Shown here: piece by piece, positions 223 to 19,607 of the stretch
Position numbering within the stretch: the stretch's first letter is position 1
Layout: every line of letters starts with the position of its first letter
Source: a virus
IMG/VR virus record: IMGVR_UViG_3300042475_003074
Coordinates: 1-26,384 of that record
Direction: 5' to 3' (one strand)
Length of the DNA: 26,384 nt
Notes under the pieces: model-generated
Told to the model about the DNA's origin: nothing
The model's input: the letters and a program-made list of their open reading frames with translations, nothing else
Database searches by the model: none
Position numbers and translations under genes: made by a program

Positions 223-244
223 TTGCGTTTCTTTTTCGTTTTGT
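223..244 (+). promoter_or_regulatory. Late-promoter-like element, site D
   Basis: TTGCGT (223-228), ten bases, then TTTTGT (239-244) preceded by CG, matching TTGnnn-N8-YGTTTTGT. Thirteen bases separate it from the ATG at 258 of the capsid gene. The same element with the same spacing stands before five other genes of the window. It is the only candidate promoter in front of the capsid block. No mirrored partner lies upstream, as expected for a one-way start. Confidence 0.7.
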
Positions 245-257
245 TGTGTCTCTCGCA

Positions 258-2249
258 ATGTCGAAAGCCACACAAAAACAATTCTCCCCGCAGGTCCGCT
301 CCTTCGACCTGTCGCGCTCCTCGATCAACGAGGACGAGCGCACGGTAGACGTTGTTTTCTCGACCGAAACCGATCAAGTCGAACGCTCTTGGGGCGTCGA
401 GATTCTCGACCACGGTTCAAAGTCTGTTCGCCTCAAGCGGCTGAACAACTCCGCGCCGCTCCTGCTCGATCACGATCCGCGCGAGCAAGTCGGAGTCATC
501 GAATCCGCTCGCATCGACGGCAAAACTGGAGCCGCTACCGTTCGATTTTCCCGCTCTGCAAAGGGCGAGGAAATCTTCCAAGACGTTAAGGACGGCATCC
601 GCTCCAAGATTTCCGTTGGCTACCGCGTCCACGCACTCGTCATGGAAAAGCGTGACAAGCAGAGCGGAAAAGAAACTTACCGCGTCATCGATTGGGAGCC
701 TTTCGAGATTTCCCTTGTTTCTATTCCCGCCGACGACGGCGCTGGAGTTCGTGACGCATCCTCCATCTTCGGCCAAAGAGCCGCTGAACTTTCAACCTCC
801 ATTACCATGGAAAACCAAGACCACGACCAAGAACGCGCCGACAACGCAACGGCTCCCGCTGCGATCGCTCCGGCGGAAACCAAGAACGAAGTCCGCGCCG
901 CCGCTGAGGTGGAACGGGAACTCAACAAGCTTCAAATCGCTCAACTTGCGAAGGAAGAAGCCGCACGCGCCATCGCTGAAGATCGCAAGCGTGCTGCCGA
1001 AATTACCGAATGCGGTAACGGATTCCGCCGCAACCAGGCTGAGATCACGAAGGCCATCGAAAGCGGTTTGAGCATCGACGACTACAAGCGCCAACTCCTC
1101 GACTCTATGAAAACCGAAAACCCCGCTTACTCCGCTGGCCGCGTTGAAGTCCTCAGCGAACCCGTGAAGAAGGGAACTCGCCAATACCTCCAAAGCACCT
1201 GGGCGGAGAACGCCAAGCGTGCCTTGGGTGACCGTGGCCGCAACATCGTTGTTCCGACCTACTCCGAAGCTCGCGAGTTTTCTCGGAACTACATCGGCGG
1301 ATCGCAAACCCCCTTTCACCGCTCCCTTACCGGATCCGTGACGCTCGTCGACAAGCTTGCCATCGACGAAGGCATCGGTATGCCGATCGTCGAGGAAGTG
1401 GTCGCAATGTATCCCGAAATCGCAGTCTTCCCGGTTGATACCATCTCCGGCGACACCGTGACGCTCTCGATCCAAACCGGCAACCCCTCCGTTGGATATC
1501 GTAACGCCAACGAAGGAACCTCGGCCAAGAAAGGCACGTTCGCCTCGCGCATCTTCCAGACCTCGATCATCGAGCAGTTTATCAACGTCGATATCCAAGG
1601 CGTTCTCAACGCCAGCAAGGATCCGGCCCGTGTGCTGACCGCCGAAGCTCGCAGCGTGACGAAGGCAGTGCTTAGTCACATCGCATTCCAGCAATGGTAT
1701 GCTGGCACGACCCAAGCAAGCGTTGACGCCAAGGCCGCTCCCGGCTTCCTCGCTCAGTCCAACAGCGCCGCGACTCACGTTGTCGATGCTACCGGTTCGA
1801 CCGCTAAAAGCTCGGTCTGGATCATGGAGCTTCTGCAAGGCGAATGCGATCACGTTTACGGAAACGACAACACTCTTCTCTTCGGCGAAGATTGGACCGA
1901 AGAAACGGTTGACGACGCGAACGGCAACAGCCTCCGCTGCCTTCAAAACTGGATCTCGGGCCGCGTTGCTCCTCGCCTCGCGAACAAGAACCGCGCCATC
2001 CGGATTAAGAACCTCGGAACCGATTCCGGTAAGGGTCTGACCGACGCTCTCCTTGCGAAGGCGTTCCGCCAAGCTCGCGAACTGGGCATGAACCCCAACG
2101 CGATTTTCGCAACGCCCCGCTCCGTCGAGCAGCTTCAAGTTAGCCGCACCACCTACTCGCCCATCGGCGCTCCCGCTCCGATGCCCGAAGAGTATCAGGG
2201 TGTTCCGATCTATCAAACCATCAACCTTTCCAACGCGGAGACGGTCTGA
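258..2249 (+). CDS. Prohead protease / major capsid protein fusion
   Basis: A 663-aa protein that joins two head functions. The N-terminal ~165 residues form an HK97-type prohead protease (U35-like). Visible are the LLLDHD histidine (about residue 72 from this start), KISVGY serine (about 119), and the downstream EPFEISLVSIPAD block. A charged, alpha-helical, Ala/Glu-rich linker (about 180-270) resembles a scaffold or delta domain. The remaining ~390 residues read as an HK97-fold capsid protein. Fused protease-capsid polypeptides are a known annotation class. The protease would be expected to cut itself from the shell protein during maturation. GTG at 246 is an alternative in-frame start, but ATG 258 keeps the 13-base distance to the upstream element seen at the other sites. 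It has no Shine-Dalgarno sequence. It is the first gene of the + strand head block. Confidence 0.88.
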   Translation: MSKATQKQFSPQVRSFDLSRSSINEDERTVDVVFSTETDQVERSWGVEILDHGSKSVRLKRLNNSAPLLLDHDPREQVGVIESARIDGKTGAATVRFSRSAKGEEIFQDVKDGIRSKISVGYRVHALVMEKRDKQSGKETYRVIDWEPFEISLVSIPADDGAGVRDASSIFGQRAAELSTSITMENQDHDQERADNATAPAAIAPAETKNEVRAAAEVERELNKLQIAQLAKEEAARAIAEDRKRAAEITECGNGFRRNQAEITKAIESGLSIDDYKRQLLDSMKTENPAYSAGRVEVLSEPVKKGTRQYLQSTWAENAKRALGDRGRNIVVPTYSEAREFSRNYIGGSQTPFHRSLTGSVTLVDKLAIDEGIGMPIVEEVVAMYPEIAVFPVDTISGDTVTLSIQTGNPSVGYRNANEGTSAKKGTFASRIFQTSIIEQFINVDIQGVLNASKDPARVLTAEARSVTKAVLSHIAFQQWYAGTTQASVDAKAAPGFLAQSNSAATHVVDATGSTAKSSVWIMELLQGECDHVYGNDNTLLFGEDWTEETVDDANGNSLRCLQNWISGRVAPRLANKNRAIRIKNLGTDSGKGLTDALLAKAFRQARELGMNPNAIFATPRSVEQLQVSRTTYSPIGAPAPMPEEYQGVPIYQTINLSNAETV

Positions 2250-2285
2250 TTTAACCCATCCTGACAACCCCAACTACACAAGACC

Positions 2286-2690
2286 ATGTCACAAAAAGTT
2301 AATCGCCGGAACAAAGCAGACGCTCTTCTCAGCGTTACCAAGGCGCTCCCCGCTGCCGCTGCCAACAACGACACCGATGAAATCTACATCGGGCCTGCTG
2401 GACCGCATCGCGAAGGCATGAAGCTCCGCGCTTCGTGGCCTGCCAACAGCGTCCTCGTTGCCACCAAGCTCCTCACGCTTACGCTGAAGAGCGGAGCGAC
2501 CGGGGCGCTTGCCTCCGAAACCGATCCCACTGCTACCTACGTCATTACCGGAAATACCGGTTTTGACGCTGGCTATGTTGATTTCGAGCTTGGGCAAAAC
2601 GTTGGCGAATACGTCGCGGTCAACCAAGCCGTCGAAACTGGCGGCGGTTCCAACATCGCCACCTCGTTCACCTACACGGTGGTCTGCTAA
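2286..2690 (+). CDS. Probable capsid decoration/stabilisation protein
   Basis: 134 aa, directly after the capsid gene with a 36-base gap. The sequence is beta-rich and Ala/Thr/Gly-rich with no catalytic motif or membrane segment. The stretch around residues 40-70 (KLRASWPANS and following) and the C-terminal SFTYTVV read like a small shell-binding protein. The position after the major capsid gene is where phages usually encode decoration or stabilisation proteins. The function is inferred from position and composition, not from a recognised motif. It has no obvious ribosome binding site. Confidence 0.6.
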   Translation: MSQKVNRRNKADALLSVTKALPAAAANNDTDEIYIGPAGPHREGMKLRASWPANSVLVATKLLTLTLKSGATGALASETDPTATYVITGNTGFDAGYVDFELGQNVGEYVAVNQAVETGGGSNIATSFTYTVVC

Positions 2691-2702
2691 AAAATCCCAT
2701 TC

Positions 2703-2948
2703 ATGCCCGCAGTAAATTCAGAAGCGAAAGCCGACGACGCACCGGGGGAGGTTCCGCCTCTTCCCTCCCCTGGTGCGACTGCGGACAGGGTTAACCGCAT
2801 CCAGCGCATCGTTGACATTGTCGAAATGCTCAACGGCACACCGGACCAAGAGACGGTCATCGAGGACGAGCGGAAAAACCTCACGGCATTTATTGCCGAA
2901 GGTCTCGACGCTAGCCTAACCGCCAAAGTTAAAGCCATCCTAAAATGA
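2703..2948 (+). CDS. Small hypothetical protein of the head block
   Basis: 81 aa. The first ~25 residues are Pro/Ala/Gly-rich and look disordered. The rest is helical and charged (VNRIQRIVDIVEMLNG, then ERKNLTAFIAEGL). The gene lies between the decoration candidate and a connector candidate and overlaps the next gene by 4 bases (ATGA). I do not recognise the family. The position suggests a head-tail connector accessory or a capsid-associated protein. Confidence 0.6.
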   Translation: MPAVNSEAKADDAPGEVPPLPSPGATADRVNRIQRIVDIVEMLNGTPDQETVIEDERKNLTAFIAEGLDASLTAKVKAILK

Positions 2949-3244
2949 GCTATGCGACCCTCGATCATCAAGCAGCCCTTGCCGATCTGATCGCGTTTGA
3001 AGGCAAGATGATCGAAATCGACGGCGTCAAGATGAGGGCAATTATCGAACAAGGCGACACCTCCTTTGAGGCGAGCGAATTCGGAATCGACAACCGCGAA
3101 AGCACACTGACCGCGACCATCCTAAACAGAGGCACGACGCCGCGCAAAAAAGCGCCCGTCTTTTACCAAGGGCAAAAATACCGCATAACGGCAATCAAGC
3201 CCGAGGGCGAACGAATCCTTTCCATTGACCTGACAAATGATTGA
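2945..3244 (+). CDS. Head-tail joining protein candidate
   Basis: 99 aa, starting inside the stop of the preceding gene (ATGA). After a short N-terminal helix it is mainly beta: EIDGVKMRAIIEQ, then a C-terminal VFYQGQKYRITAIKPEGERI hairpin. This layout (helix, 'G-x-x-x-x-a-I' strand, late Y-r-I strand) is like small gpFII-type head-tail joining proteins, which sit at this place between capsid and tail genes. The assignment is by fold impression and synteny only. Confidence 0.6.
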   Translation: MSYATLDHQAALADLIAFEGKMIEIDGVKMRAIIEQGDTSFEASEFGIDNRESTLTATILNRGTTPRKKAPVFYQGQKYRITAIKPEGERILSIDLTND

Positions 3245-3650
3245 TACCACCCCAGACCTCGCAGAGCGAGTCGAGGACAGCGTCGCACGGGTTTTCCGCG
3301 ATGCATTCCCTGGTATTGTCATCGCAACCTCCAGCAAGCCCGAGGAGCGCGTTGGAACGTCCATTGGCATCAAGGCCGAGACCGGAGCAGAGGAGCCAAT
3401 CGGAACAAACATCTTTCCCGTCTCAATCGACATCGAGACGCGCAATCTTGATGCACAACAGCGCGAACTCATGCGCGAGATGATCGGCAATGCCGACTCT
3501 GCCAAGCAGACGGTTTCCGCCTATTCTGCTAAATCCTTTACCATGCCGCGAGGGCAAGCCGTCGAAATGATCGGCGCACCTCGCACGGTCGAGAACGAAA
3601 ACGACCGCATCATTACCTATTCTCTTGTCGCCACAATCCAACCCATCTGA
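3237..3650 (+). CDS. Tail terminator / tail completion candidate
   Basis: 137 aa, overlapping the preceding gene by 8 bases. It has an N-terminal helix (LAERVEDSVARVFRDAF), a central beta strand pair (FPVSIDIETRNLDAQQRELM) and a C-terminal TYSLVATIQPI strand. This is the alpha/beta pattern of phage gpU-like tail terminators, whose gene normally precedes the tail tube gene, as here. No diagnostic motif was seen. An alternative is another neck protein. Confidence 0.6.
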   Translation: MIDTTPDLAERVEDSVARVFRDAFPGIVIATSSKPEERVGTSIGIKAETGAEEPIGTNIFPVSIDIETRNLDAQQRELMREMIGNADSAKQTVSAYSAKSFTMPRGQAVEMIGAPRTVENENDRIITYSLVATIQPI

Positions 3651-3653
3651 GCC

Positions 3654-4034
3654 ATGCCAACTCCCACTTTTGTATCTGCAACCAACTTCGTAAAAGGCGT
3701 TGTCAGCGCCGAGACGGCCATTAACATTTCCGACTTTCGCCAAGGCTGGACCAACGAAAAGATCTTCATCGAAGACAAAGGCGGATCGCCCACTGGATTT
3801 GTCTACAACTTCCTGACCGCGACCACCTGCACCATTACCGGGGAGGTTAATACTTCCGCCCTTAGTGGCGTCCTTGGTGTCGCATTCGGAACTGCCGAGA
3901 CCGTGGCAAATTCCGTGTCTGGCTACGGTATCACCACGGGAGGTTTCTATATGGACGACATCGAAATCAGTCAATCGCGAGGCGCTTTGGCAACGGCTAC
4001 GGTGAACTTCACCAAGCATCCTGACATCACCTGA
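3654..4034 (+). CDS. Probable major tail tube protein
   Basis: 126 aa. The protein is almost wholly beta with many Thr, Gly and Ala, ending in FYMDDIEISQSRGALATATVNFTKHP. Such a sequence ending in a long strand pair suits a small tail-tube subunit that assembles in stacked hexamers. It follows the tail-terminator candidate and precedes the chaperone pair with one gene between. It is short for a tube protein, so a tail-tube-like or neck protein remains possible. Confidence 0.55.
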   Translation: MPTPTFVSATNFVKGVVSAETAINISDFRQGWTNEKIFIEDKGGSPTGFVYNFLTATTCTITGEVNTSALSGVLGVAFGTAETVANSVSGYGITTGGFYMDDIEISQSRGALATATVNFTKHPDIT

Positions 4035-4036
4035 GG

Positions 4037-4717
4037 ATGAGTGAACTAAAAGGGGCGGGAGTTAACATCATCCCAACGCAATGTCCGCGCTTCTTCGCGG
4101 CTTGCGTAACGGCTGGCGTCGAGCTGGAGCCGGGAACCCCAGGCGTTTCAAACGTCTATTCCAAGGGAGTGACATACGATCCCGACGAGCCGGGAACAAT
4201 CAGCTATCACCTCGACAACAAGACTGTCGGCCCTTTGTCGCTCGCTAAAGTCTGGCGGGATCCGTCGCAGGACATGAATGAAGCCGCAGCACTGCCAGCG
4301 CGAATGATCAGCGCAAGGACAGAGGACCATTGGCAGAGCATCGCAGACGACCTAGAGTTGCTCCACGTTTATTGTGCCATCGCACACATCAAGTCATTCG
4401 CCGACGGCAAATTTGCAATCGGAATGCGTGCTGTGACCGACGAGGAGGAGCGCGCCGCGCAAATGCTCTCGGACATGCCCGATGTCATTCGCAACGCTAC
4501 AGGCAGGCGCAACGGCGGAAAGATTGCTGCCCGATTTGACGCAATCTGGATGCCTGCCATGTTCGCATGGGTAAAAGCATGGGTGGCCAATTACCTAGAG
4601 CTGAAAGACATCTGGAAGGCAGCCAATCCCGCAATCAAGATCGAGCGCGAGGGTTTTCCGCTCGTCATCCCAAAAGGTCCACAATTTGAGAAACTAGCCC
4701 GTCGTTGGGTCAAATAA
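4037..4717 (+). CDS. Unknown protein of the tail block
   Basis: 226 aa, starting two bases after the tail tube stop. I do not recognise it. The N-terminal third is Pro/Gly-rich beta sequence, and the rest is helical with several aromatic positions (WKAANPAIK, FDAIWMPAMFAWVKAWV). The hydrophobic run near residues 168-185 is interrupted by Lys and is more likely a buried helix than a membrane span. It lies where tail assembly proteins are encoded, between tube and chaperone genes, and may be structural or a chaperone partner. Confidence 0.65.
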   Translation: MSELKGAGVNIIPTQCPRFFAACVTAGVELEPGTPGVSNVYSKGVTYDPDEPGTISYHLDNKTVGPLSLAKVWRDPSQDMNEAAALPARMISARTEDHWQSIADDLELLHVYCAIAHIKSFADGKFAIGMRAVTDEEERAAQMLSDMPDVIRNATGRRNGGKIAARFDAIWMPAMFAWVKAWVANYLELKDIWKAANPAIKIEREGFPLVIPKGPQFEKLARRWVK

Positions 4718-4730
4718 CCAAAAAAGAAGC

Positions 4731-6374: not shown

Positions 6375-7813
6375 ACGTTACCGGGAGGAGCCGGCGCTTT
6401 CCCAATTGCCGTAGATAGCCCTGCTGCTTCCAACTTGGCGTTGTCCGCCTCATTCTCGGCAATGATCTTGTCGATGTTCAAGCCGCGATCCTTGGCCGCA
6501 CGCTCTCGCGAATTAAGCGAAAGAGCGATTTCCCGCTCGATGGCCTCAATGTCGCCGACCGGATCCACCCAAGTCCACGTTCTGCCGGAGAACTCAACAT
6601 GAGAAAGACGGTCGAAATCAAGGAGGGTATAGCCCTCAATCCTACCCATTAGGAGGGCCATTCGTAGCCAGCGCTCGAAAAGCGGAATCTCAAATGTGTC
6701 GATGAACCACGAGTGAAGGATTTTGTAAATGTCGCGCTCTGACAGGACGCCCTGCCGGATCGACGAATACGAAACGCCCTCCAAGTCTTGCGCCCAAGTG
6801 TTGTAATTGACGTAGATGCCCGGGGAGACGCCGCGCAGAATAGCCTTTCGGAAGTCAGGCATCGCACTATTCGGATGCGCTGGGTCAATCATCTGGGCCT
6901 CGACGCCGTGGGGCAACGTCTCAAACGTGCCTGGTGCGGAAGGCGCAATGGCTTTGCCATCGTCGTCCTCATCGCCAGTGTATTGAGCCTCGCCAGTTTG
7001 CTTGAAAAAGCCAAGCTTGTTTGCGCTGATACGGGCGGCGATGACCTCGGCTTCTTCGAATTTCGCGAGATGCCGAAGGCGCAGGAGGGCATTGGCCAGC
7101 CAAGAATAGCCTTGGCTCTGGTTGATTCGACGCGCCAAGAATGTGTGGATCATGTTGTCACCACCGACCGCGAACGTCTCGCGAGTGTAGCGACCGCTCT
7201 TGGGGTCCATCTTGCGCAAGTGATACCGAATCGGCTCATCCCACTCGTCAAACTCCACGCCCATGTAAATACGGGCGGCATCGTTCCGGTGATGCGGATC
7301 CAAAGCGTCGATCTCGATTCCTTGAGCAGCAAAGCGGAAATCGTTTTTAGGGAAGCCCTCGACCGTCCGCGTGAGGAAGCCACCATCGCGAACGGCAGAG
7401 CGCAAGGCGAGGCGCTCGAAAGCAGCGCGTGAGAACTGGCGCGTAACGTCGAAATTGCCACGCCGGGAGAAATCCTCCCAAGCCTCCTCAACCTTTGCTC
7501 TCGCGTTGTTGTCGGCGCTGTTCGACAAGCCTTTTTTGCTCCTCGCATCTGCTCGACGGGCGAGCGATTTCATGCGGATACCATGCTGCCCAATGACGTT
7601 GGATTCCAAAGCCATCAAAGCGCCTTCAATGTAACCGTCATTCCGCTCAGAATCCCGCGCACGGTCGCGCAGTGACTTGGCATCCTGCTTGATCGCGTTA
7701 TCCGCTGGGCCTGTCCCGGCAACCCAATCGTTCGTGTATCGAGTGCCTTTGGCCGCGTCGAAATTGCGAGCGCGGATGGGCTTGTTGTTGGGGCCGTAGA
7801 GAAGAGGTTTCAT
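6371..7813 (-). CDS. Portal protein, lambda GpB family
   Basis: 480 aa, slightly shorter than lambda gpB (533). The N-terminal block SLRDRARDSERNDGYIEGAL followed by SNVIGQHGIRMKS (about residues 47-83) is the signature start of lambda-type portals. Further family features are GIEIDALDPHHR, FDEWDEPIRYHLR and the YVNYNTWAQDLEGVSYSSIR segment near 330-350. It forms the dodecameric ring at the capsid vertex through which DNA is packaged. The start overlaps the stop of the gpW-like gene as ATGA, so it is translated with it. It is the last gene of the - strand block. Confidence 0.92.
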   Translation of the reverse strand: MKPLLYGPNNKPIRARNFDAAKGTRYTNDWVAGTGPADNAIKQDAKSLRDRARDSERNDGYIEGALMALESNVIGQHGIRMKSLARRADARSKKGLSNSADNNARAKVEEAWEDFSRRGNFDVTRQFSRAAFERLALRSAVRDGGFLTRTVEGFPKNDFRFAAQGIEIDALDPHHRNDAARIYMGVEFDEWDEPIRYHLRKMDPKSGRYTRETFAVGGDNMIHTFLARRINQSQGYSWLANALLRLRHLAKFEEAEVIAARISANKLGFFKQTGEAQYTGDEDDDGKAIAPSAPGTFETLPHGVEAQMIDPAHPNSAMPDFRKAILRGVSPGIYVNYNTWAQDLEGVSYSSIRQGVLSERDIYKILHSWFIDTFEIPLFERWLRMALLMGRIEGYTLLDFDRLSHVEFSGRTWTWVDPVGDIEAIEREIALSLNSRERAAKDRGLNIDKIIAENEADNAKLEAAGLSTAIGKAPAPPGNV

Positions 7814-8346
7814 TCAAATCTGGAGTAAATGGTTCGACCGTTGGAAAGGCCAGCGTCTGCGCGAGCCTTGGCGATCTCGGTGTCGAGGTCGCGTCGATAT
7901 TTGGTCAACAGCTCGCGAGCGTCCATCAAAGAGATTTTGGTAATGGGAACACCTCCGACCGTGTAAGTCTCAAGTCCCCGGCCTTCGTCATCGCTGATTC
8001 GGCCCTCAAGATGAGCTTCCAAAGCCTTAACCATCTTCCGCGCATGACTCGGCAGCGGGGCGCGATCCGGCGGGGCTTGCAGCGTGATATTGCCAATGGA
8101 CTCAACCGACCGAATCCCGGCCACCTCGAGCGTCAGAGCAACGACGTAGATTCCTGCCGGTAGGTTTGCCGTCTTTTCCGGCGCATAGGTCGCGGTAGCC
8201 GTCGTATCTGAGACTGAAAGCGGAACCGTGACCACCTCGCCAGTGTCGATGCTGCGAAAATGAGCGGATCCTGTAGCGCCTGACGTTACAGTTGCCGTAA
8301 ATTCGATGGATTCGCCGCAGAATGCACGGGAGGGTAAAGCTGCCAT
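7810..8346 (-). CDS. gpW-like head completion protein with N-terminal beta domain
   Basis: 178 aa, between large terminase and portal, the place of lambda gpW. Residues about 100-178 match the gpW-like pattern: a helix (HARKMVKALEAHLEGR), a beta hairpin (ETYTVGGVPITKIS), a second helix (DARELLTKYRRDLDTEIAKAR) and a basic tail (RTIYSRF). Lambda gpW is only 68 aa. Here about 90 extra N-terminal residues (GESIEFTATVTSGATGSAHF ... GIYVVALTLEVAGIRSVESI) form an Ig-like beta domain, joined by a Pro-rich linker (APPDRAPLPS). It is preceded by promoter-like site B at the standard 13 bases. Confidence 0.75.
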   Translation of the reverse strand: MAALPSRAFCGESIEFTATVTSGATGSAHFRSIDTGEVVTVPLSVSDTTATATYAPEKTANLPAGIYVVALTLEVAGIRSVESIGNITLQAPPDRAPLPSHARKMVKALEAHLEGRISDDEGRGLETYTVGGVPITKISLMDARELLTKYRRDLDTEIAKARADAGLSNGRTIYSRFE

Positions 8347-8359
8347 ATTGGAGGCATCT

Positions 8360-8381
8360 ACAAAACAAAGCCCAATTTCAA
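8360..8381 (-). promoter_or_regulatory. Late-promoter-like element, site B
   Basis: On the minus strand: TTGAAA, ten bases, TTTTGT preceded by TG, then 13 bases to the ATG at 8346. It fills the 45-base gap between the large terminase stop and the gpW-like start, and would drive the gpW-like and portal genes separately from the upstream terminase. It is the only one of the six sites that lies inside a co-directional block. Confidence 0.65.
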
Positions 8382-8391
8382 GGGCTTTTGG

Positions 8392-10275
8392 TTAATCGGC
8401 TACGAAATCAAGAGTATATTCGCGCTCCTTACCTCTATCTGGCACGTTTTTGGCCGCATATTCGGCGTATTTCTTGGCAATCGTGGCAAAAGCAATGTCG
8501 AGCTTCTTGGCTGCGGCGATGTTGTAAACGCGAACGTCGAGCGGTTCGTTTCGGTCGCGCTTGTCCTTCTTGTCGAAAAACTCATAAAAGCTCCCGTCTT
8601 GTCCTTTCTTCAGCGTCACCTTCTCGATCAGCAAGCGTTGGAAATATTCCGGCGTATAACCGTGGCCGCTGGGGAAATGCATGTAATTATGCGGATAGAT
8701 GGAAGATTTGCGATCTTGGCGCAGGGCCGCGTTCTGGTAAATCATGCTCTTGCATTCGTGAGTGCCGATCTCAAAGAACGTCCCGCGCTTTTCCCGCTTG
8801 GGCTGCGAGACAATCGGCTTGCCTAGGACCGTCGAGCCGAAGATTGCAAAGACTCCGCGAGCTTGTCGCGGCCTAGTAAAGGCTAGCACCTGGGCCTGCC
8901 GGTATTTAGAGTCGATAAAAACAGAGGCGACGCGCAGCACCTTCCCGCACGGGTGCAGGAACTCGGTCTGGAGCAGCGCATCGAGCTTTTGCCAAACCTC
9001 TGGCTCCATCGTTCCCCCAATCAAAATGTGATACCCCAGCCCCCACGTTTGACCGTTCGCACCGTGACCGACAAACTCAAATTCCAAACGGTCTCCTTGA
9101 ACGTCGCAGCCTCCGGTGACGACCAGCACGCCGGCGGGAATCGTGAACTGGTTTTCAGTCACGCGGTCCAAATAATCGTAAGCCTCCTGAGCAAGGCCGA
9201 CCGGATCCGGCATTTCCTCCTCTGGGGCTTGGTAGGTTTCCGCATCAAACGTGTTAATCAGCACGCGCTTCGCCTTCTCGCGATTGTCCGCCGCCTCGAT
9301 TTTCAGCTCCTCGACCGCAGCCCAGTGCAGGTGGCTCGCGAAGCCCTTCTGAGGCGGGTGCGGCGACATCATCCGCGAACCGTGAAAGCCTGCTATGCCG
9401 TTAAACGGCCGCGTTGCCTGCCATCTGCCGTTCCGTATCATCTCCATGCGCTCCGCATCGGAGATTCGGCACTCGCTCTCGGGGCATTCAATCCACGCGT
9501 CCTCGGGCTTGTTGCGGTCATATTTGAGCTGGCGTCGGTGCAGGACAAACTCCTTAGAGCAATGGGGGCAGGGCGCGATCCAGACTCGCCAATCGCTTTG
9601 AAGCATCAGCGCCTCGATTTTGCTCTTACCCTTCACGCTAGGGTAGCTCGCGGCAATCTTGATTGTGTCCGCATATTCGGATCCGCGAACCCAAAAGATC
9701 TCAAGCGGGTCACCTTCATCTGATTCCGTCGATTCGATGGCGTCGATCTCGTCCGCGAAAAGAAAGTTTCCCTTTGCTCTCCGCATCTCACCTGGAGCAT
9801 TGGAACCGAAAGCATTGACCAAGCCACCGGGGAAAAGCTTATGGAGGATTGTGTTGCCGCTTTTGCGCCTCCCAGAATCGTCGCCAATGAGCGAGGCCAG
9901 ATCCGGCGTCGGATTAACCAGCTCTCCCATAAGCGTCTCCTTGCTCCACTTCTCGGTCTGCGAGATCGTCGGATACATGACGAGAACGCGACGAGGCGCC
10001 TCTGCGATGCTGTGGCCGATTTGGTTCATTACCACCTCCGTTTTGCCCATACGGCTGGCGAGCATGTAAACCGTCATCTGAACGCGCGGATCGTAAGGCG
10101 CTTCCATCATCTCTCGCTGATACGGTGCGAAGTCGAAGCGGAAGCGTCTCCCGCCTTCCATGCGCCTGACCTTCTCGGACCATTCCGGCGCAGTCATCGT
10201 GCGCTGAAACCTAAATGCCCGTTCTAAGTGCCTGAGAGTCCCTCGGTAATACCGATCAAGTGCCGCCTCGTTCAT
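8392..10275 (-). CDS. Terminase large subunit, GpA family
   Basis: 627 aa, close to the length of lambda gpA (641). An N-terminal ATPase has a Walker A variant ASRMGKT (residues 73-79), the Walker B end FADEID with Asp175-Glu176, and a coupling region TIKIAASYPSVKGKSKIE. A zinc-finger-like insert follows (CPHCSKEF, later CPESECR, residues about 236-270). The C-terminal nuclease half has TGGCDVQGDRLEFEFVGHG and SVFIDSKYRQAQ acidic strands. With the small subunit it cuts concatemeric DNA and pumps it through the portal. It starts 11 bases after the stop of the preceding gene on the same strand, without a clear Shine-Dalgarno sequence. Confidence 0.93.
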   Translation of the reverse strand: MNEAALDRYYRGTLRHLERAFRFQRTMTAPEWSEKVRRMEGGRRFRFDFAPYQREMMEAPYDPRVQMTVYMLASRMGKTEVVMNQIGHSIAEAPRRVLVMYPTISQTEKWSKETLMGELVNPTPDLASLIGDDSGRRKSGNTILHKLFPGGLVNAFGSNAPGEMRRAKGNFLFADEIDAIESTESDEGDPLEIFWVRGSEYADTIKIAASYPSVKGKSKIEALMLQSDWRVWIAPCPHCSKEFVLHRRQLKYDRNKPEDAWIECPESECRISDAERMEMIRNGRWQATRPFNGIAGFHGSRMMSPHPPQKGFASHLHWAAVEELKIEAADNREKAKRVLINTFDAETYQAPEEEMPDPVGLAQEAYDYLDRVTENQFTIPAGVLVVTGGCDVQGDRLEFEFVGHGANGQTWGLGYHILIGGTMEPEVWQKLDALLQTEFLHPCGKVLRVASVFIDSKYRQAQVLAFTRPRQARGVFAIFGSTVLGKPIVSQPKREKRGTFFEIGTHECKSMIYQNAALRQDRKSSIYPHNYMHFPSGHGYTPEYFQRLLIEKVTLKKGQDGSFYEFFDKKDKRDRNEPLDVRVYNIAAAKKLDIAFATIAKKYAEYAAKNVPDRGKEREYTLDFVAD

Positions 10276-10286: not shown

Positions 10287-11258
10287 TCAAACAGGTTGCC
10301 CGTGGCTCAACAATGCTGGAGCCAGTGTCATCAATTGCGAAAATTGCGTCTCCGTGCCTCGCGAGAAGGTCAAGACCGCCGCAGTTGGAAGTGCAACGCT
10401 GGCCGCGTCGAGAAGCCGCAGCACCTTGGAAGTGTCGAGCGTCATCGTCACGCCAATGGGACCAATAAACGTCTCGGAAACCGTGATCGCCGGATTCACG
10501 CCCACGGCAGTCCGCTTGATTTCAATCTTGATCGTCTCTCCGGTCGCATCTCTCGCTACCAAGAACTCTCCCGGCTCGATGTCCTCCACAGCCATTTCAA
10601 TTTGATAGGTTGAGACATCCGCCGAAAGCCACATTGTGCCGGTATCGGAAGCCGTGCGAATCTGGAACTTGCCAGCGTCAGGCATCCTCGAAATGGTTAT
10701 GCGGTCGTTTTGCGCCACACTCACGCTCCCGGTCGCCACGTTTGCAACCGTCACGGCAGCCTCGTTAATGTTGGCCGCGCTCGTTGCCGCTACGAGCGTC
10801 TGGAGCGTTAGGTCAATCTCGACCGTCTCTACGTTGGATGCGCCGCCAGCGATGAGCGTAAGCGCACGATTTGTCATCGTCCCGAAGGCGGAATGGGCAA
10901 TGGTGAAATCCGCCCTCGCTCCGTTGCTGCGGAACGTGACAATGAAAAGCCCGTTTTGCCCAGATACATCTACGCCACCTGCCGAAACAATGGCGGAAAG
11001 TCGATTGAGCGCGAGGCCGAGCAAATGCGCGTCAATACCGGCAGCGGGAAGCTCGACGGTGGAAGCGCCCCAAGTGATCGACCAATCGCCGGAAGCAATC
11101 GGAACGGGCTTTTCGAGCGCAAGGGACAAGCTTAACGTGTCACTGCTTGTAATCTCCAAATGATCCGCGATTAGCTCGACGCTGAGACTGTCGCCGGGGC
11201 GAATCGCGTCAGGCAATCCCCGCACTTGGCCTTTGTCGTCGTAGCGCAATTTCAACAT
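10287..11258 (-). CDS. Unknown beta-rich protein upstream of terminase
   Basis: 323 aa, starting at ATG 11258 (MLKLRYDDKG). The open frame continues upstream to 11348, but 11258 places the start 13 bases after promoter-like site F, as at other sites. The sequence is a series of beta strands rich in Thr, Val and Ala (GDSLSVELIADHLEI, IEPGEFLVARDATGETIKIEI) with no cysteine, no membrane segment and no enzyme motif, suggesting stacked beta-sandwich domains. It is the first gene of the block carrying large terminase and portal, and sits back to back with the fibre gene. A virion structural role is likely. I do not recognise the family. Confidence 0.7.
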   Translation of the reverse strand: MLKLRYDDKGQVRGLPDAIRPGDSLSVELIADHLEITSSDTLSLSLALEKPVPIASGDWSITWGASTVELPAAGIDAHLLGLALNRLSAIVSAGGVDVSGQNGLFIVTFRSNGARADFTIAHSAFGTMTNRALTLIAGGASNVETVEIDLTLQTLVAATSAANINEAAVTVANVATGSVSVAQNDRITISRMPDAGKFQIRTASDTGTMWLSADVSTYQIEMAVEDIEPGEFLVARDATGETIKIEIKRTAVGVNPAITVSETFIGPIGVTMTLDTSKVLRLLDAASVALPTAAVLTFSRGTETQFSQLMTLAPALLSHGQPV

Positions 11259-11271
11259 GTCGGACGCCTCG

Positions 11272-11293
11272 ACAAAACGCCGCGCAAAATCAA
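11272..11293 (-). promoter_or_regulatory. Late-promoter-like element, site F
   Basis: On the minus strand: TTGATT, ten bases, TTTTGT preceded by CG, then 13 bases to the ATG at 11258. The 13 bases (CGAGGCGTCCGAC) nearly equal those after site E (CGAGTCCTCCGAC). Its TTG box is one base away from the TTG box of site A on the other strand. Confidence 0.7.
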
Positions 11294-11294: not shown

Positions 11295-11316
11295 TTGAAA
11301 ATCCCCGTTGTTTTGT
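11295..11316 (+). promoter_or_regulatory. Late-promoter-like element, site A
   Basis: TTGAAA, ten bases, TTTTGT preceded by TG, then 12 bases to the fibre ATG at 11329. Here the following bases include GGAGG, a good Shine-Dalgarno sequence seven bases before the ATG. Together with site F it forms a symmetric 45-bp divergent module (11272-11316) inside the 70-base gap between two opposite genes. Confidence 0.7.
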
Positions 11317-11328
11317 GGAGGCATCGAC

Positions 11329-13608
11329 ATGCCCGACTCTCCCGTCATCTCTGGCGTTGCCGACCTGCCTAAATTCTATTTTGCGGAGGGCGCACCTTTC
11401 CGACTGACACTCACTATCGGCGCTGAATTTTCAATGACGGGCAAATTCGTGACCTTTGGAATGAGGGCGCGTTCCGGCACGGTCAGACGCGTTTTCGGGA
11501 CGGATTCCGGCGAGTCGAATCTGACCATTGCGGGGCAAGTCATCACATTCAACGTTGCGACAACCGACGCGACCGTCCCGGCCTTTGCTTCGGGCTGGAC
11601 GTTGGAAGATGTCCAGGCCAAGGGTGAGACTGAATACTGGGTGGATATCTCCGCGACCGAAGGCAGTGACGTTCTCCTGCGCCTTCAAGGCCAAGCCGAT
11701 TGGGTGGCTCCTGGATCTGACATCGCTGAATCTTCCGCTGTTGTTTCATCGCCAGCGATTGATGTGAACATTACAAGCGGAGCCGTTTCTGTATCGGTTG
11801 CAGTCCTCGGCGCCGCGGAACCGACGCTTACGACCAATACCGCAACCAGCGGGTTGACGGGCATTCTCAAGGCCGCAAGCAACACGCTAGACGTTGCCGT
11901 TGCCGGAACCGACTACGTTGCCACAAACGATTCCCGCCTGACCGACGCAAGAACGCCCACAAGCCACGTTCATGGGGGCATTTCCAACGCAGGCGCAATC
12001 GGCTCGACCTCGGGCCTGCCGATCAAGACCGGAACGAGCGGAGTCCTTGAAGCTGGCGCATTCGGAACTGGATCCGGTCAATTCGCACAAGGCAACGATG
12101 CGCGATTCCATGATCGGTCGCATGCGATGACCTCGACCAGCGACCACACTGCCGGGAACTGGAAAGTCTTCCACTCCAATGCCAGCGGACAACTTGTCGA
12201 GCTTGCCCTTGGTGCGGACGGGACTTTTCTCAAGAGCAATGGCGCGTCTGCTGCACCTTCCTTCGCTACTCCTGCGGGAGGCGGATCGTCCATCACCGGA
12301 ACGGGAATCGCATATGTCCGCACAACAGGGAACGGAGGAAATGATACAACCGGGACTATCGGAGATCCCTCCAAGCCATATGCAACCGCGCAAGAGGCAT
12401 GGAATGATGGGGCGCGGGTTTTTGAATTGGGGGCCGGAAGCTTTTCGTTTACGCACACATCATCCGTTGGTAACACTGCGGAAGAACGTGTTTTCATCCA
12501 AGGACTTGGTAAGGAGGTTTCTAGCATCTCAATTACATGGAATGGTCTCGACGGCACGGTCGGATCGACATCTCCCTTTATGGTTGATGGTGGCAACGGG
12601 GCAATGCCTTCTAAGTTGTTTTTACAGTCTGACAGCACCGTAGCCATCTCTCTTGCTATGTCGGGTGGAGACGGTGGAGCAGGAGGCGCAGGACAACCGG
12701 GAACCATTGAAGCACAAGGGGGCGGAGGTAGTGATGGTGGCGACGGGAGCAATAGCCCAGAGTTTAGTATTGCGAATGCACATCTAACTGCTTTTAGCTG
12801 CGTTGTTGGTGCGCTTGGAGCAGGTGGCGCAGGTGGCTCTGATGGTGGGGCCGGGGCTGGTGGGAACGGAACGGACGGAATTTCGGGTAACATAACCGGA
12901 GGTCTCTTTTCTTGGTGCTATGTGCCAAGCACCTACACTGCTCCTGCTCAAGATGTCTTTTTGGCTAGCACAGTTGCTGGTGCAGGGCAGCTTGTTTTTG
13001 ATGGTGACAAGGGTAGTATCACAGTTAGCAGTAATGGGACTACTTGGTCTATAGATCAAGGGGCAGTTGCCATTGACAGAATTGTTAGTGCCACGGCAAA
13101 GGGTAAAATCATTGGTAGAAAAACCGCAGGTTCGGGGTTTTTCGAGGAGTGCGTAATCACCGATTTTATCGACGCTCCCGTTGTCACAACTGCCAACATT
13201 ACTGATACTGCGGGCGCTGTCGCCAACGTAACCGGCATGTCATTCGCAATTGCTGCCAACGAAAAAGTTTCGGCGACCTTCAGAGGTTTTTGGTCGACGA
13301 GCGTTTCTGGCTCGGGTTTCAAATATGCTTTTACTGGACCAGCCTCGCCTACCGACGTTCAGATCGGCGACTTCTCTTTCACTTCGGCCACCGCAGTCAG
13401 AACTGAATCGGGAATAACTGCATTTAGCACGACCGCGACTCAAGGCGGCGGCACGTTGCTTAACAGCGCAATGCCGATCATGATTCAGATTTATGTGTGC
13501 AACGGATCGACTCCAGGCACGGTCCAGCTCCAAATTGGCGGAGAAGTAAACGGGTCAACATTCACGCTCTACAAAGGCTTTACGATGCAGGTTCTCAGAA
13601 TCCCATGA
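11329..13608 (+). CDS. Tail fibre / receptor-binding adhesin with glycine-rich segments
   Basis: 759 aa from ATG 11329, preceded by TGGAGG at a seven-base distance. The N-terminal ~140 residues form a beta domain (FAEGAPFRLTLTIGAEFSM ... ADWVAPGSD) of the kind that anchors fibres to the baseplate (BppU-like impression). A shaft follows with fibre repeats (AGTDYVATNDSRLTDARTPT, then HDRSHAMTST). At about 324-368 there is a beta-helix entry (GDPSKPYATAQEAWNDG). Around 445-475 and 496-520 it has dense Gly-rich runs (GGDGGAGGAGQPG; GGAGGSDGGAGAGG) like the polyglycine-II receptor-binding tips of S16-type gp38 adhesins. The C-terminal ~150 residues resemble a globular trimer tip. GC content falls in the distal half. 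It begins the fibre block. Confidence 0.82.
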   Translation: MPDSPVISGVADLPKFYFAEGAPFRLTLTIGAEFSMTGKFVTFGMRARSGTVRRVFGTDSGESNLTIAGQVITFNVATTDATVPAFASGWTLEDVQAKGETEYWVDISATEGSDVLLRLQGQADWVAPGSDIAESSAVVSSPAIDVNITSGAVSVSVAVLGAAEPTLTTNTATSGLTGILKAASNTLDVAVAGTDYVATNDSRLTDARTPTSHVHGGISNAGAIGSTSGLPIKTGTSGVLEAGAFGTGSGQFAQGNDARFHDRSHAMTSTSDHTAGNWKVFHSNASGQLVELALGADGTFLKSNGASAAPSFATPAGGGSSITGTGIAYVRTTGNGGNDTTGTIGDPSKPYATAQEAWNDGARVFELGAGSFSFTHTSSVGNTAEERVFIQGLGKEVSSISITWNGLDGTVGSTSPFMVDGGNGAMPSKLFLQSDSTVAISLAMSGGDGGAGGAGQPGTIEAQGGGGSDGGDGSNSPEFSIANAHLTAFSCVVGALGAGGAGGSDGGAGAGGNGTDGISGNITGGLFSWCYVPSTYTAPAQDVFLASTVAGAGQLVFDGDKGSITVSSNGTTWSIDQGAVAIDRIVSATAKGKIIGRKTAGSGFFEECVITDFIDAPVVTTANITDTAGAVANVTGMSFAIAANEKVSATFRGFWSTSVSGSGFKYAFTGPASPTDVQIGDFSFTSATAVRTESGITAFSTTATQGGGTLLNSAMPIMIQIYVCNGSTPGTVQLQIGGEVNGSTFTLYKGFTMQVLRIP

Positions 13609-15448: not shown

Positions 15449-15450
15449 TC

Positions 15451-15753: not shown

Positions 15754-16460
15754 GTCGCGATTGACACGGACGCGACTGGGAAACATCCGCCTTGGCCTTG
15801 ACCTTGACCGCCTCTGTCGTTGATCCCTAAATACGACGAGCCGAGATCGAACATCCGGTATGTCCTGACAAATGGAAACGGTCCAGATGTGTCTACTCTT
15901 TCAATTTCAACGTTGATGATCAGTGGGCTTCCAACAATAGCCCAAACGTAGTTACTGTTTTGATCTTTTGCTGGCCTTGGAATTGGAGCAGTCATAGTCA
16001 CATCTAACGTCCAATACCCGATATATTCGGTAAAATTCAAAATCTTATAATAACGAAACCCAGAAAAACCGACCCCACTGAAATATATGGATTCTTCGTC
16101 TGGGTCAGTATATCTTTCGAAAAGCTTTGCCTGCGTGTCCCATTTATAATCGAGGTTAAACGTTTCAAGTTGAGTTCGCGTATCGTAATATTTCCAAGTT
16201 CCCGATTCGCAGACAACCGAGTAAGACACATCTTCTGGAAACTCTTCGCCAAACTCCGCGTTGAAAGCGGCAGAGCTGAACTCAAACGAAAAATTGAACT
16301 CCTTCGCCGTCAGGAGATCGCAAACCTTACCAGGCGGCACTCTCCAATCGCCAGCAACGTTCCAGATTGGAGCTTCTGCCGTTGTATCAATTTCAAAAAA
16401 CGTATCAGGCACGGCAAACGGCCACGCCATTCGATACCGATTCTGAAAAGGCGCGATCAT
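15738..16460 (-). CDS. Distal tail protein candidate, last of tail block
   Basis: 240 aa, start overlapping the stop of the preceding gene (ATGA). It is rich in aromatic residues (Phe, Tyr, Trp) and beta strands (ESGTWKYYDTRTQLETF; FRYYKILNFTEYIGYWTLDV), with a Gly/Gln-rich stretch near the C-terminus (DRGGQGQGQGGCF). This looks like an exposed virion protein, perhaps tail-tip or adhesin. It is in the AT-richest part of the window (20 of 60 bases G or C at 16021-16080). The family was not recognised. Confidence 0.65.
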   Translation of the reverse strand: MIAPFQNRYRMAWPFAVPDTFFEIDTTAEAPIWNVAGDWRVPPGKVCDLLTAKEFNFSFEFSSAAFNAEFGEEFPEDVSYSVVCESGTWKYYDTRTQLETFNLDYKWDTQAKLFERYTDPDEESIYFSGVGFSGFRYYKILNFTEYIGYWTLDVTMTAPIPRPAKDQNSNYVWAIVGSPLIINVEIERVDTSGPFPFVRTYRMFDLGSSYLGINDRGGQGQGQGGCFPVASVSIATHFPA

Positions 16461-17083
16461 AAGAACGTCGGAACGACTCGCGTCCTGCTTTGATTCGGCA
16501 CGGTTGCCAAAGTGAAAGCGAGCGTTGGGTAGGGACCTATCAGCTTGGTGGCATAAATTCCTTCTCCGACTGAGATGGCATCTTTTTTGTCGGCCTCTTC
16601 GGCTAATGCCTCAACGCGATGGATTGGAATCCGAGTTATTTCCCATTCAAACGGGTCAGCGCCAAACTTGTAGGCAGAAGGAAACCCGTCCCAAGTGTCA
16701 ACGCTTTCAATGGTGATTGTTGGCGTTTCAAGAAACGTGTCAATCGGGCCTTCCATCTTCGCAACGACCCAATCGCCATCCGCAAGCGTAAAGGGATCGT
16801 TTGTGATCGTCACCTCCTGCTCGATGTCCTCTCGCGAAAAAGTCACGCTAGGATTTAACAAGATCCATTCATCATCTGAATCTGGCGCACGTTTTAAATC
16901 CCATCGAAAGGTGCTTGTGCTGCCGCTTAAAACATACGGCGGCATCCATCCGTTTTCCGTCTCAACCCATCCCGGTCTGCCACCAGGATTGACGCCATGC
17001 TTTTTGGCTGCCGCTACAACGGCATTTAGCGCATTGGCGAAGTTCGTGTTGCCGCTTTTGAATGTTGGAAAAGAGTAACTCAT
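16457..17083 (-). CDS. Distal tail protein candidate
   Basis: 208 aa. ATG 17083 overlaps the upstream stop (ATGA) and has AGGAAG five bases before it. The longer frame from 17140 is therefore rejected. It begins SYSFPTFKSGNTNFANALNAVV, then becomes beta-rich (EVTITNDPFTLADGDWVVAK; TITIESVDTWDGFPS). It is second of three mid-size genes behind the tape measure, where lambda encodes minor tail and tip proteins. No enzymatic motif is seen. Confidence 0.65.
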   Translation of the reverse strand: MSYSFPTFKSGNTNFANALNAVVAAAKKHGVNPGGRPGWVETENGWMPPYVLSGSTSTFRWDLKRAPDSDDEWILLNPSVTFSREDIEQEVTITNDPFTLADGDWVVAKMEGPIDTFLETPTITIESVDTWDGFPSAYKFGADPFEWEITRIPIHRVEALAEEADKKDAISVGEGIYATKLIGPYPTLAFTLATVPNQSRTRVVPTFL

Positions 17084-17712
17084 GGCGCTTCCTGCGTGAC
17101 CGGCTCGACGAGGTTTTTCCACGTTTCCGTGACAGCCCAAACTGTTTTAGCTAGCCTCACGCGTTGAAATCCCGCAAGCACGCCCTCAAGCTTGTAGTTT
17201 CCAGAGATGGATCCGGTATAATCTGGCGGATTAGGCTGGCGCAAAAGCCCCACGGGCAACGTAGTTGGAACGACGCCTGGAAACTGCGGCCGCGTTGGAT
17301 ATCTACTCGATCTGCTAATCCATCGAGTGGTAGCGGTCTGTGCAAAATACCGGAAATTGACGTTTTCGCCTGTTGAGGTGGTAATTGTAACGCTCTCCTC
17401 CGCGATGTCGTCGGTAATGTCGATGACGCCTCTGTCATTATCGACTGAGTCGAGGAAGCCAAGGTAATTTAGGACCACATCGCAAACCGGACCACGCTCC
17501 TGCCACGATACCGTTTGAAGAAACATGTTTTTGTATGTTGAATGAGCCGCGCCACGCCTCCAAAACGCCAACTCCGAATTGAGCTGTGCATTTGAAGTTC
17601 CTACAGCGCCGCGACGAGTCACGGTCAATGTGTCAGGGCCGTCGAACCCCTTGGCGGAATCGACTGAAAAATCGCGGAATGACGTTGTTCCTCTAGATGC
17701 GGCGGTTGGCAT
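17080..17712 (-). CDS. Distal tail protein candidate, next to tape measure
   Basis: 210 aa, starting one base after the tape-measure stop (TGACATG). The N-terminus is basic and Ser/Thr-rich (TTSFRDFSVDSAKGFDGPD). The middle is acidic and beta-rich (YLGFLDSVDNDRGVIDITDD), and the end reads LEGVLAGFQRVRLAKTVWAV. The place immediately after the tape measure is that of lambda gpM-like minor tail proteins. The function is inferred by position only. Confidence 0.65.
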   Translation of the reverse strand: MPTAASRGTTSFRDFSVDSAKGFDGPDTLTVTRRGAVGTSNAQLNSELAFWRRGAAHSTYKNMFLQTVSWQERGPVCDVVLNYLGFLDSVDNDRGVIDITDDIAEESVTITTSTGENVNFRYFAQTATTRWISRSSRYPTRPQFPGVVPTTLPVGLLRQPNPPDYTGSISGNYKLEGVLAGFQRVRLAKTVWAVTETWKNLVEPVTQEAP

Positions 17713-17713
17713 G

Positions 17714-19549
17714 TCAGTTAACGGTTACGGCGGATTTAATGTTGCTTTCAATGGATTCAAGAGATGCCGCCTGTTTCTCTTGCAGCGACAGATTCTTCTT
17801 TGCTTCTTTGTCGTTTGCCGATGTATTGAGACGGCGCTTTTCCCCAAGTCCCCCGGTAGTCATTCCTGACGCGATGCCGAGGCGCTCGCGATCTTTTGCA
17901 AAAACGTTGTCAGTTCCTAGCGGCGCACCAGCTTCTCCGAATACGCGATTGGAGGGGCGAACTGCTTCGCCGAATGCGCGACCTGCCCCATCAGTCTTTG
18001 CTGTCCCAGCGGACGCTCCTCCCTTAATGCCTGTCATTTTTTCAATTTGCGGTCTGTATTTTTGCACAAAATCACCCAATGCTTTCGGCAGGGATTCAAC
18101 AGGTCGATTCAAGATCTCTTTCCATTGACCTCCTATTTCTGAAAACGCTTTCATGGCGTCTTCTTTTAAAGCGCTTGTGTCGAAAAAGTCCCCGGCGTTT
18201 TTAAATGCATCTTTGCCAGCTTTAAAAATCCGATCAAACGAATCTTTTACACTGTCGCCAACCTCAAACTTGAAACCATCCTTTCCGCCCCCGCCGATTT
18301 GCTCCATGATGTCTTTGCCCATCTGTTTAAGGCCTTCAAAATCCATGTTTTTCAATAGGCCGAAAGCCTTTCCCAACATGCTCGTAAACGATTCCGCAAA
18401 CGATAATGCAACATTTAAAAGAGAGTCTTTGACGGTTGACCAGAAAGAAGGATCCGTGAGAAACTTCCAAGCATTCCAAACCAGATTGGGCATTTCTTGC
18501 AAAAGCTGCAAGAGCATCGCGCCGTATGCTTTTACGCCAGCAATCAAGACATTTACCCCATCTCCCATTGCCGCGACGATAAGCTTGCCCTGAGCGACCC
18601 AGAAATCAGCACTAAATACTTCTCGAAGAAGCATTCCAGAAGCCTCAATTCCATTTCCAAGCCTTTGACCGAATTGATAGGCCATGTCGAGCAGCTTTCC
18701 CGTCATGCTTACCGCTTCCATAATAAAGCCCCCGGCGTCTTGGCCCATTTTGGCAAAATCCAAGGCATCGAACTTTTGCAGAACTTCCAAAAGAGCAGGG
18801 CCGATAACGTCAAGAATGCCAACAAAAAAGCCTTGGAACTTCTCCCCTGCCCTTGCGAGGATGTCGGAAATCTCATCAAACAGACCGGCATTGCGGTTGA
18901 GAATCTCAGCTTGGCTTCCCAAAAATGTTCCAGCATTTGCAAACGCCTTGCCATCTGCAAAAAGCGTCAAAAGCTCTCCGCCTGATTTCCCGAATAGCTG
19001 CATGGCAACAGCAGCCCTTTCGGTAGGAGATTGAATCGCGGCAATCTTGCTTTGGATTAGCTGAAATTGATCTGATGGATTGAGCTTTGAAATTTGGTCA
19101 AACGAAATGCCAAGCTTCTCAAAAGGCTTTGCTGCGGTTTTTGATCCGTTGCCGAACTCTGTAATTCCCTTTTGAAGCTTGTTAATTACTCCGCCAATCT
19201 TGTCCGCTGAGACTCCATTATCTTCAAAGGCACGCCCCATCACCGCCAGATCACCGGCGGCGATTCCTGTTCGCGCAGAAAGATCTGCGAGTTTTCCTCC
19301 TAGGTCTGCGGCGTTTTTAATGCCCATCGTTAAACCAGCGCCAGCGGCTGCGGCTCCAACAGCGGCAAGCCCAGCGCCAGCAATGGCCGAGGTCTTTGCT
19401 ATTCCGCCCAAAGCCTTGCCTGCGCCGCCAAGAGATTTGCCGATCTTAGTGCCGGTAGTTGCGGCCAGCCCTCCAGCTCGTCGCATCGTCGCAGCGAATC
19501 CCGTCATATCTGCCGAGATCGTGGTCTTGAGGTCTGCTTTTGCGGCCAT
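17714..19549 (-). CDS. Tape measure protein
   Basis: 611 aa from ATG 19549, preceded by AGGGA and by promoter-like site C at 13 bases. The N-terminal ~90 residues are typical of tape measures: TTISADMTGFAATMRRAGGL, then Ala/Gly-rich AIAGAGLAAVGAAAAGAGLT. Next comes ADLGGKLADLSARTGIAAGDLAVMGRAFEDNG and SPTERAAVAMQLFGKSGGELLTLFADG, a stretch common in phage tape measures. Long amphipathic helices and hydrophobic segments fill the rest, and the last ~60 residues are basic. Tape measures set tail length, and 611 residues predicts a fairly short tail. It is the first gene of the minus tail block. Confidence 0.88.
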   Translation of the reverse strand: MAAKADLKTTISADMTGFAATMRRAGGLAATTGTKIGKSLGGAGKALGGIAKTSAIAGAGLAAVGAAAAGAGLTMGIKNAADLGGKLADLSARTGIAAGDLAVMGRAFEDNGVSADKIGGVINKLQKGITEFGNGSKTAAKPFEKLGISFDQISKLNPSDQFQLIQSKIAAIQSPTERAAVAMQLFGKSGGELLTLFADGKAFANAGTFLGSQAEILNRNAGLFDEISDILARAGEKFQGFFVGILDVIGPALLEVLQKFDALDFAKMGQDAGGFIMEAVSMTGKLLDMAYQFGQRLGNGIEASGMLLREVFSADFWVAQGKLIVAAMGDGVNVLIAGVKAYGAMLLQLLQEMPNLVWNAWKFLTDPSFWSTVKDSLLNVALSFAESFTSMLGKAFGLLKNMDFEGLKQMGKDIMEQIGGGGKDGFKFEVGDSVKDSFDRIFKAGKDAFKNAGDFFDTSALKEDAMKAFSEIGGQWKEILNRPVESLPKALGDFVQKYRPQIEKMTGIKGGASAGTAKTDGAGRAFGEAVRPSNRVFGEAGAPLGTDNVFAKDRERLGIASGMTTGGLGEKRRLNTSANDKEAKKNLSLQEKQAASLESIESNIKSAVTVN

Positions 19550-19562
19550 TTGCAATCCCTCT

Positions 19563-19584
19563 ACAAAACATAGCAGAATTTCAA
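19563..19584 (-). promoter_or_regulatory. Late-promoter-like element, site C
   Basis: On the minus strand: TTGAAA, ten bases, TTTTGT preceded by TG, then 13 bases to the tape-measure ATG at 19549. The downstream bases AGAGGGA also offer a Shine-Dalgarno sequence. It pairs with site E across a single base. Confidence 0.7.
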
Positions 19585-19585
19585 C

Positions 19586-19607
19586 TTGCGTTTTTCGTTC
19601 GTTTTGT
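19586..19607 (+). promoter_or_regulatory. Late-promoter-like element, site E
   Basis: TTGCGT, ten bases, TTTTGT preceded by CG, then 13 bases to the holin ATG at 19621. With site C it makes a 45-bp symmetric module (19563-19607) of exactly the same length as the one at 11272-11316, and it fills the 71-base gap between the tape measure and holin genes. Confidence 0.7.

Follow-up and report, generated by a model that had tools for sequence, protein, structure and literature searches.

What is the short sequence that stands, nearly unchanged, at the start of one gene block after another in this phage: a promoter, and if so of which kind, or some other signal? The question arises from the window, by which we mean the whole stretch of DNA analysed (26,384 nt, positions 1 to 26,384 of the IMG/VR virus record IMGVR_UViG_3300042475_003074). 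A sequence-only reading had described a bipartite motif, TTGnnn-N8-YGTTTTGT, and had interpreted it as a phage-specific late promoter with a spacing unlike that of sigma-70, recognised by an unusual sigma factor, activator or polymerase. That the copies are phage promoters is almost certain from where they stand, how they are oriented, their number, their conservation and their counterparts in sister clades; the geometry, which is probably wrong, and the label 'late' had to be revised.

The element and its placement

All six copies were recovered, at 223 (+), 8360 (−), 11272 (−), 11295 (+), 19563 (−) and 19586 (+). Matches to TTG-N11-YGTTTTGT numbered 6 in the window against 0.01 expected, a count reached in none of 100 shuffles, and none of the six YGTTTTGT octamers in the window stands outside an element. 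The copies form a near-identical 35-base signal whose 3′ end abuts the start codon that opens a gene block (n = 6 in the window; Table 1), with TTTTGT-to-ATG distances of 13, 13, 13, 12, 13 and 13 nt, in agreement with the 12–13 bases reported earlier. Variation is lowest in TTTTGT and TTG. Conserved letters extend beyond TTTTGT (G24, A25, C28 and T30), and the stretch NGAGNCNTCSGAC is conserved as far as the ATG. Conserved positions keep register with TTG rather than with ATG; across the window clade the TTG-to-ATG offset is 34–36 nt at 71 of 82 distinct sites. The YGTTTTGT box holds at all six window copies, but its G, at position 16 of the element, is not constant among relatives, which carry R there.

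Table 1. Copies of the element, the genes behind them and other features of the window.
Feature	Position	Strand	Remarks
Copy 1	223..257	+	Candidate promoter of capsid/protease block, ATG at 258; conserved in L001, L004, L013, L017, L020, L027, L033
Major capsid + protease gene	258..2249	+	Behind copy 1; PHROG 4523/617
gpW-like head-tail joining gene	7810..8346	−	Behind copy 2; PHROG 5774
Copy 2	8347..8381	−	Candidate promoter of gpW/portal, ATG at 8346; within TerL-gpW gap; copy most sampled among relatives
Terminator-like hairpin AAAGCCC-TTGAAATT-GGGCTTT	8367..8388	−	Overlaps copy 2; T-tract is the TTTTGT box
Terminase large subunit (TerL)	8392..10275	−	PHROG 15
323-aa gene	10287..11258	−	Behind copy 3; no family
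Copy 3	11259..11293	−	Candidate promoter of 323-aa gene + TerL block, ATG at 11258
Copy 4	11295..11328	+	Candidate promoter of 759-aa structural gene block, ATG at 11329; divergent from copy 3, the two sharing CAAGTTG
759-aa gene	11329..13608	+	Behind copy 4; probable tail fibre, no family
Tape measure gene	17714..19549	−	Behind copy 5; PHROG 9483
Copy 5	19550..19584	−	Candidate promoter of tape-measure block, ATG at 19549
Copy 6	19586..19620	+	Candidate promoter of lysis block, ATG at 19621; divergent from copy 5, the two sharing CAACTTG
58-aa small membrane protein (putative holin) + endolysin	19621..20498	+	Behind copy 6
143-aa protein, two HTH-like regions	20619..21050	+	In all relatives examined; candidate only as DNA-binding regulator
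50-aa Arc-like ribbon-helix-helix protein	23129..23281	+	Only in part of the clade

Each of the window's five strand blocks opens with a copy and one further copy precedes the gpW/portal pair, as had been claimed. Contig G001 contains the full circle of the phage, 34,108 bp, the contig end repeating an internal stretch (158/159 nt); on the circle there are four strand blocks rather than five, the MCP copy being internal to a long + block. This complete genome has exactly seven strong sites, all before transcription units, and nothing comparable elsewhere. A matrix scan of the full genome and its relatives, the check proposed with the original reading, gave a bimodal distribution in all genomes tested, with true sites at 21–35 bits and other sequence at ∼15 bits or less, except for one 20.7-bit match in G005. 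The seventh copy, which falls beyond the window, precedes the rep/Toprim-DnaB helicase replication genes and is present in five genomes. The seven sites serve structural, packaging and lysis blocks and the replication genes; because of this last copy the element extends beyond late genes, and 'late' holds only in part. At the rep copy the ATG follows TTTTGT by ∼38 nt, so that this copy is not leaderless.

A search of IMG/VR with TerL yielded 43 loci. The element is kept at the corresponding gene starts in nearly all TerL-related loci (∼40 related IMG/VR contigs), with variable internal letters, and the expectation that relatives would conserve it was thus borne out. In all relatives the copies retain their strand and gene partner, and no inversion was seen. 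This constancy argues against recombination or inversion sites at module borders, an explanation suggested by the presence of copies at strand-block borders and by their mutually inverted arrangement at two pairs. One copy, between TerL and gpW, is moreover internal to a single strand, and we consider the explanation barely worth entertaining. More distant phages (45–48% TerL identity: L136–L139, L168–L183) had no motif and a different gene order. Phage isolates show a TerL identity of ∼32%, and the 323-aa protein had no relative among them.

The two pairs of copies stand back to back on a common CAASTTG core, creating a 45-bp near-palindrome. Such symmetry, together with the presence of an HTH protein in all genomes examined, would suit an operator bound by a phage DNA-binding protein (e.g. 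the 143-aa HTH protein), with the promoters located elsewhere. However, the single copies (223, 8360 and rep) are asymmetric and always point downstream, promoter boxes fill the same interval in sister clades, and the Arc-like protein is missing from G005 and G006, which both retain the motif. An operator is in our view very unlikely.

Promoter geometry in sister clades

Sister phages were found by way of TerL, and orthologous gene starts were compared in three sister clades at 61–73% TerL identity, a small set of four short contigs or contig groups in which L164–L166 are near-identical. In L038 (73% TerL identity) the orthologous starts read TTGCAA-N16-TATAAT-N6-ATG, a near-perfect sigma-70 promoter, and TTGAAT-N16-TAGACT-N6-ATG. 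L166 (61%) has TTGTAA-N17-CAAAGT-N6-ATG, TTGTAA-N17-GAAAGT-N5-ATG and TTGAAA-N16-TAGTGT-N5-ATG, and the orthologous start of L159 reads TTGCGC-N16-GATTAT-N6-ATG. The general layout at these starts is therefore TTG-N3-N16/17-hexamer-N5-7-ATG. The full −35/−10/ATG geometry is present at seven of the nine sister block starts examined, as compared with 14 of 801 ATGs overall (those matches included). A TTG lies 33–36 nt upstream at all nine, as compared with 10% of ATGs, and an A occupies −11 at all nine.

The TTG-to-ATG distance is 33–36 nt in all four clades, that of the window included. Because this distance matches, the TTG of the window clade is probably the −35 box of its sisters, with TTTTGT placed in the spacer and a normal spacing overall. 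A TTG(ACA)-type −35 thus lies at the right distance, provided that transcription starts at the ATG. The statement that the spacing is not that of sigma-70 hinged on taking TTTTGT as the −10 box, and fares poorly in the comparison: sister clades place a −10-like hexamer 8 nt further downstream. At this position the window clade has GAGKCN, in which the A at −11 is usually kept (copy 1 is without it) and the T at −7 is lost. A TATAAT-like −10 located 16–18 nt downstream of TTG is thus absent from the window clade, present in L038 and partly present in L166 and L159. A sigma-70 consensus scan of the window gave no more matches than chance, and neither these gene starts nor others in the window clade carried a canonical promoter of another type. 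L134 (69% TerL identity), in which CTTKTTGY replaces YRTTTTGT at all three sites seen, is by its sequence intermediate between the sister and window-clade promoters.

The strongest box within the window clade remains TTTTGT and not the −10 position, and a different reading of the boxes is possible. TTG and TTTTGT could themselves be displaced −35 and −10 boxes with a 10-bp spacer and have their own dedicated reader in the phage, a sigma factor, appropriator or polymerase; transcription would then start ∼7 nt past TTTTGT and leave a leader of 5–6 nt. The invariance of the two boxes agrees with this reading, as do concerted changes within genomes (YATTTTGT-like at three of three sites in G002, CTTKTTGY at three of three in L134), which are expected of sites tracking one reader. 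However, sister promoters have no box at this place, their hexamer lying 8 nt beyond it, and no sigma factor or RNA polymerase was found among the families searched. We regard displaced boxes as unlikely.

The fixed distance to the ATG and the conservation of the letters that precede it would also be expected of an element acting at translation start or in the mRNA leader, of which the Start-Associated Sequences of Cluster K mycobacteriophages are an example. These contain AGGAG and sit in non-structural genes (PMC3203893). The likeness is that of a conserved repeat just before the start codons of a subset of genes; unlike them, the present element is found at transcription-unit starts and carries a −35-like box. 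It has no AGGAG, and it stands mostly at the starts of structural blocks rather than as a 13-bp Shine-Dalgarno-containing repeat before many non-structural genes. Internal genes are without a copy, the rep copy lies far from its ATG, and the element takes in the TTG upstream at −35 as well as, in the sisters, promoter boxes. A leader element is for these reasons highly improbable.

A model of the promoter and its reader

We favour the model, at a probability of roughly 0.6, that each transcription unit has a complete compact promoter which was rewired from a sigma-70-family leaderless promoter and which starts transcription at or near the ATG. Each copy would be a whole promoter driving one transcription unit. 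Host RNA polymerase would contact TTG as it does a −35 box, and the hexamer 17 nt beyond TTG (GAGKCN) would occupy the −10 position with a decayed sequence. YRTTTTGT (−21 to −14) would act as a clade-specific spacer or extended −10-type element compensating for the poor −10, the YRTTTTGT-N-GA block, invariant in the window clade, supplying the missing recognition. Transcription would begin at the ATG or within a base or two of it and give a leaderless mRNA. The ancestral form, an ordinary sigma-70-family leaderless promoter, would be the one still present in sister clades.

A leaderless mRNA fits the near absence of Shine-Dalgarno sequences: the motif is rare, nearly all window genes being without one, suggesting that the host lineage seldom relies on it. 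The reading also fits published leaderless promoters, since leaderless genes in bacteria are marked by −10-like boxes ∼12 nt before start codons, and in Actinobacteria and Deinococcus-Thermus a −10 box, TANNNT, stands just before the open reading frame (PMC3160421, PMC12340547). The sister clades resemble these promoters in having a −10-like hexamer with the start codon 5–7 nt on, a TTG 16–17 nt further up and no Shine-Dalgarno sequence; the −10 position 5–7 nt before the start codon and the lack of a Shine-Dalgarno sequence apply to the element in general. The TANNNT hexamer is present in L038 (TATAAT, TAGACT) and absent from the window clade, which instead has the added invariant spacer block YRTTTTGT-N-GA. 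Judged by its −10 sequence, the element is therefore not a member of the TANNNT class. A promoter of the Bacteroidota type (TTG-N17-23-TAnnTTTG) had no conserved instance at gene starts.

The enzyme is likely to be host RNA polymerase, either by itself, together with a lineage-specific host sigma factor, or altered by a small protein of the phage. The first proposal, a sigma factor, activator or polymerase of an unusual kind, is possible, but the complete 34.1 kb genome shows no recognisable one. Pfam and PHROGs gave no match to a sigma factor, an RNA polymerase or a known appropriator in the proteins scanned from this genome, nor any to MotA or AsiA, and no relative of gp39 was found. Nor did these proteins include a single-subunit RNA polymerase family, the 759-aa protein, without a Pfam or PHROG match, being the only large unassigned one; the element thus lacks the phage-encoded polymerase of a T7-type promoter. 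Small orphan proteins remain and leave room for a divergent factor, and one of them may read the altered promoter. Three, the Arc-like 50-aa protein and two other small proteins, were excluded as universal readers since each is missing from genomes that have the motif; the nine left over, which are kept universally, are the 143-aa HTH protein and proteins of 89, 80, 84, 118, 92, 97, 80 (a second one) and 105 aa. For the 143-aa HTH protein the AlphaFold model was poor (pLDDT 59.5, two HTH-like regions), and no significant structural or sequence match was found.

A tentative extension of the model, less likely than not, is that a phage protein without recognisable sigma or activator homology re-targeted host polymerase from TATAAT to YRTTTTGT-N-GA, so that all gene blocks, replication included, would depend on leaderless promoters poorly read by the unmodified enzyme. 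An overlapping explanation, which we hold to be possible but doubtful, is that the element is a promoter of the type normal for the host lineage, with a host sigma factor as its reader, and tells more of the host than of the phage. The lack of canonical promoters of another type in the window clade is in its favour, as are the other −10 sequences carried by sister phages, perhaps with other hosts. No motif match was found in nine bacterial genomes, a weak test since none is a candidate host, and the divergent-pair pattern across IMG/VR was confined to this phage clade and four AT-rich coincidental matches (L108–L110, L115). A host search by TerL in GTDB returned relatives at 26–33% only and identified no host.

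Other phages also direct transcription through elements beside the usual boxes. In Thermus phage P23-45 the middle and late promoters belong to the extended −10 class, and host RNA polymerase remodelled by gp39 uses them (PMC7403470). The present element would resemble these as a case of a lytic phage steering host polymerase to promoters whose recognition depends on elements beside the −10; it differs in its invariant TTG at −35 and in a longer spacer box, two bases off the usual TGn register. Middle promoters of T4 combine a MotA box with sigma appropriation, a good −10 being kept and the −35 replaced (PMC2988021). They share with the element a phage-specific box within an RNA polymerase-type layout, but here it is the TTG −35 that is kept and the −10 that is lost, so that the T4 pattern of an activator box with a good −10 is not present. 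In phiEco32 and 7-11 a short motif is likewise repeated upstream of structural and other gene clusters; in contrast to the element, their phage-sigma promoters consist of a single box, TAATGTATA, and a recognisable sigma factor is encoded (PMC4331800).

The seven sites constitute a fully enumerated promoter set for the complete genome of an uncultured phage, and the sister clades show a −35/−10 leaderless promoter exchanged for another recognition code at fixed position and spacing. If confirmed, this would offer a clean way to study changes of promoter recognition within a phage lineage, and the element could serve as a marker that assigns orphan contigs to this phage group.

Hairpins and contig structure

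The gpW copy and some of the rep copies have a terminator-like hairpin before them or overlapping them, which is what the start of a new transcript at these places would lead one to expect. The gpW hairpin is retained in 15 distinct orthologues with variable stability. It would end the TerL transcript just ahead of the new start, a role that we propose tentatively because hairpin strength varies among the orthologues. Hairpin promoters like those of the N4 virion RNA polymerase were considered and rejected, since only the gpW copy folds well and the others do not.

Directly upstream of the rep copy, a hairpin AAAGCTC-N-GAGCTTTT was seen in L076 (4120 region) and L044 (12447 region). In L071 (3053–3086) a perfect inverted repeat, CGTTACAGTAACG, lies just before the rep start codon and is perhaps an operator or an RNA hairpin. 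In distant phages (L170, 7229 region; L179, 7334 region; L169, 7292 region) an intrinsic-terminator-like hairpin has its T-tract adjoining the ATG of a small gene.

In G001:1–26975 and G002:1–41000 (L069, L070, L073, L074) there is, fused on at the tail-fibre gene, a further set of terminase, portal and tape measure genes that is unrelated to the first. These double sets probably arose as assembly chimeras by way of a tail-fibre domain common to both, or may be true mosaics. A tandem repeat of ∼600 bp reading MAMRGSL is present at G005:29198–29806, and another repeat array at G001:3–293.
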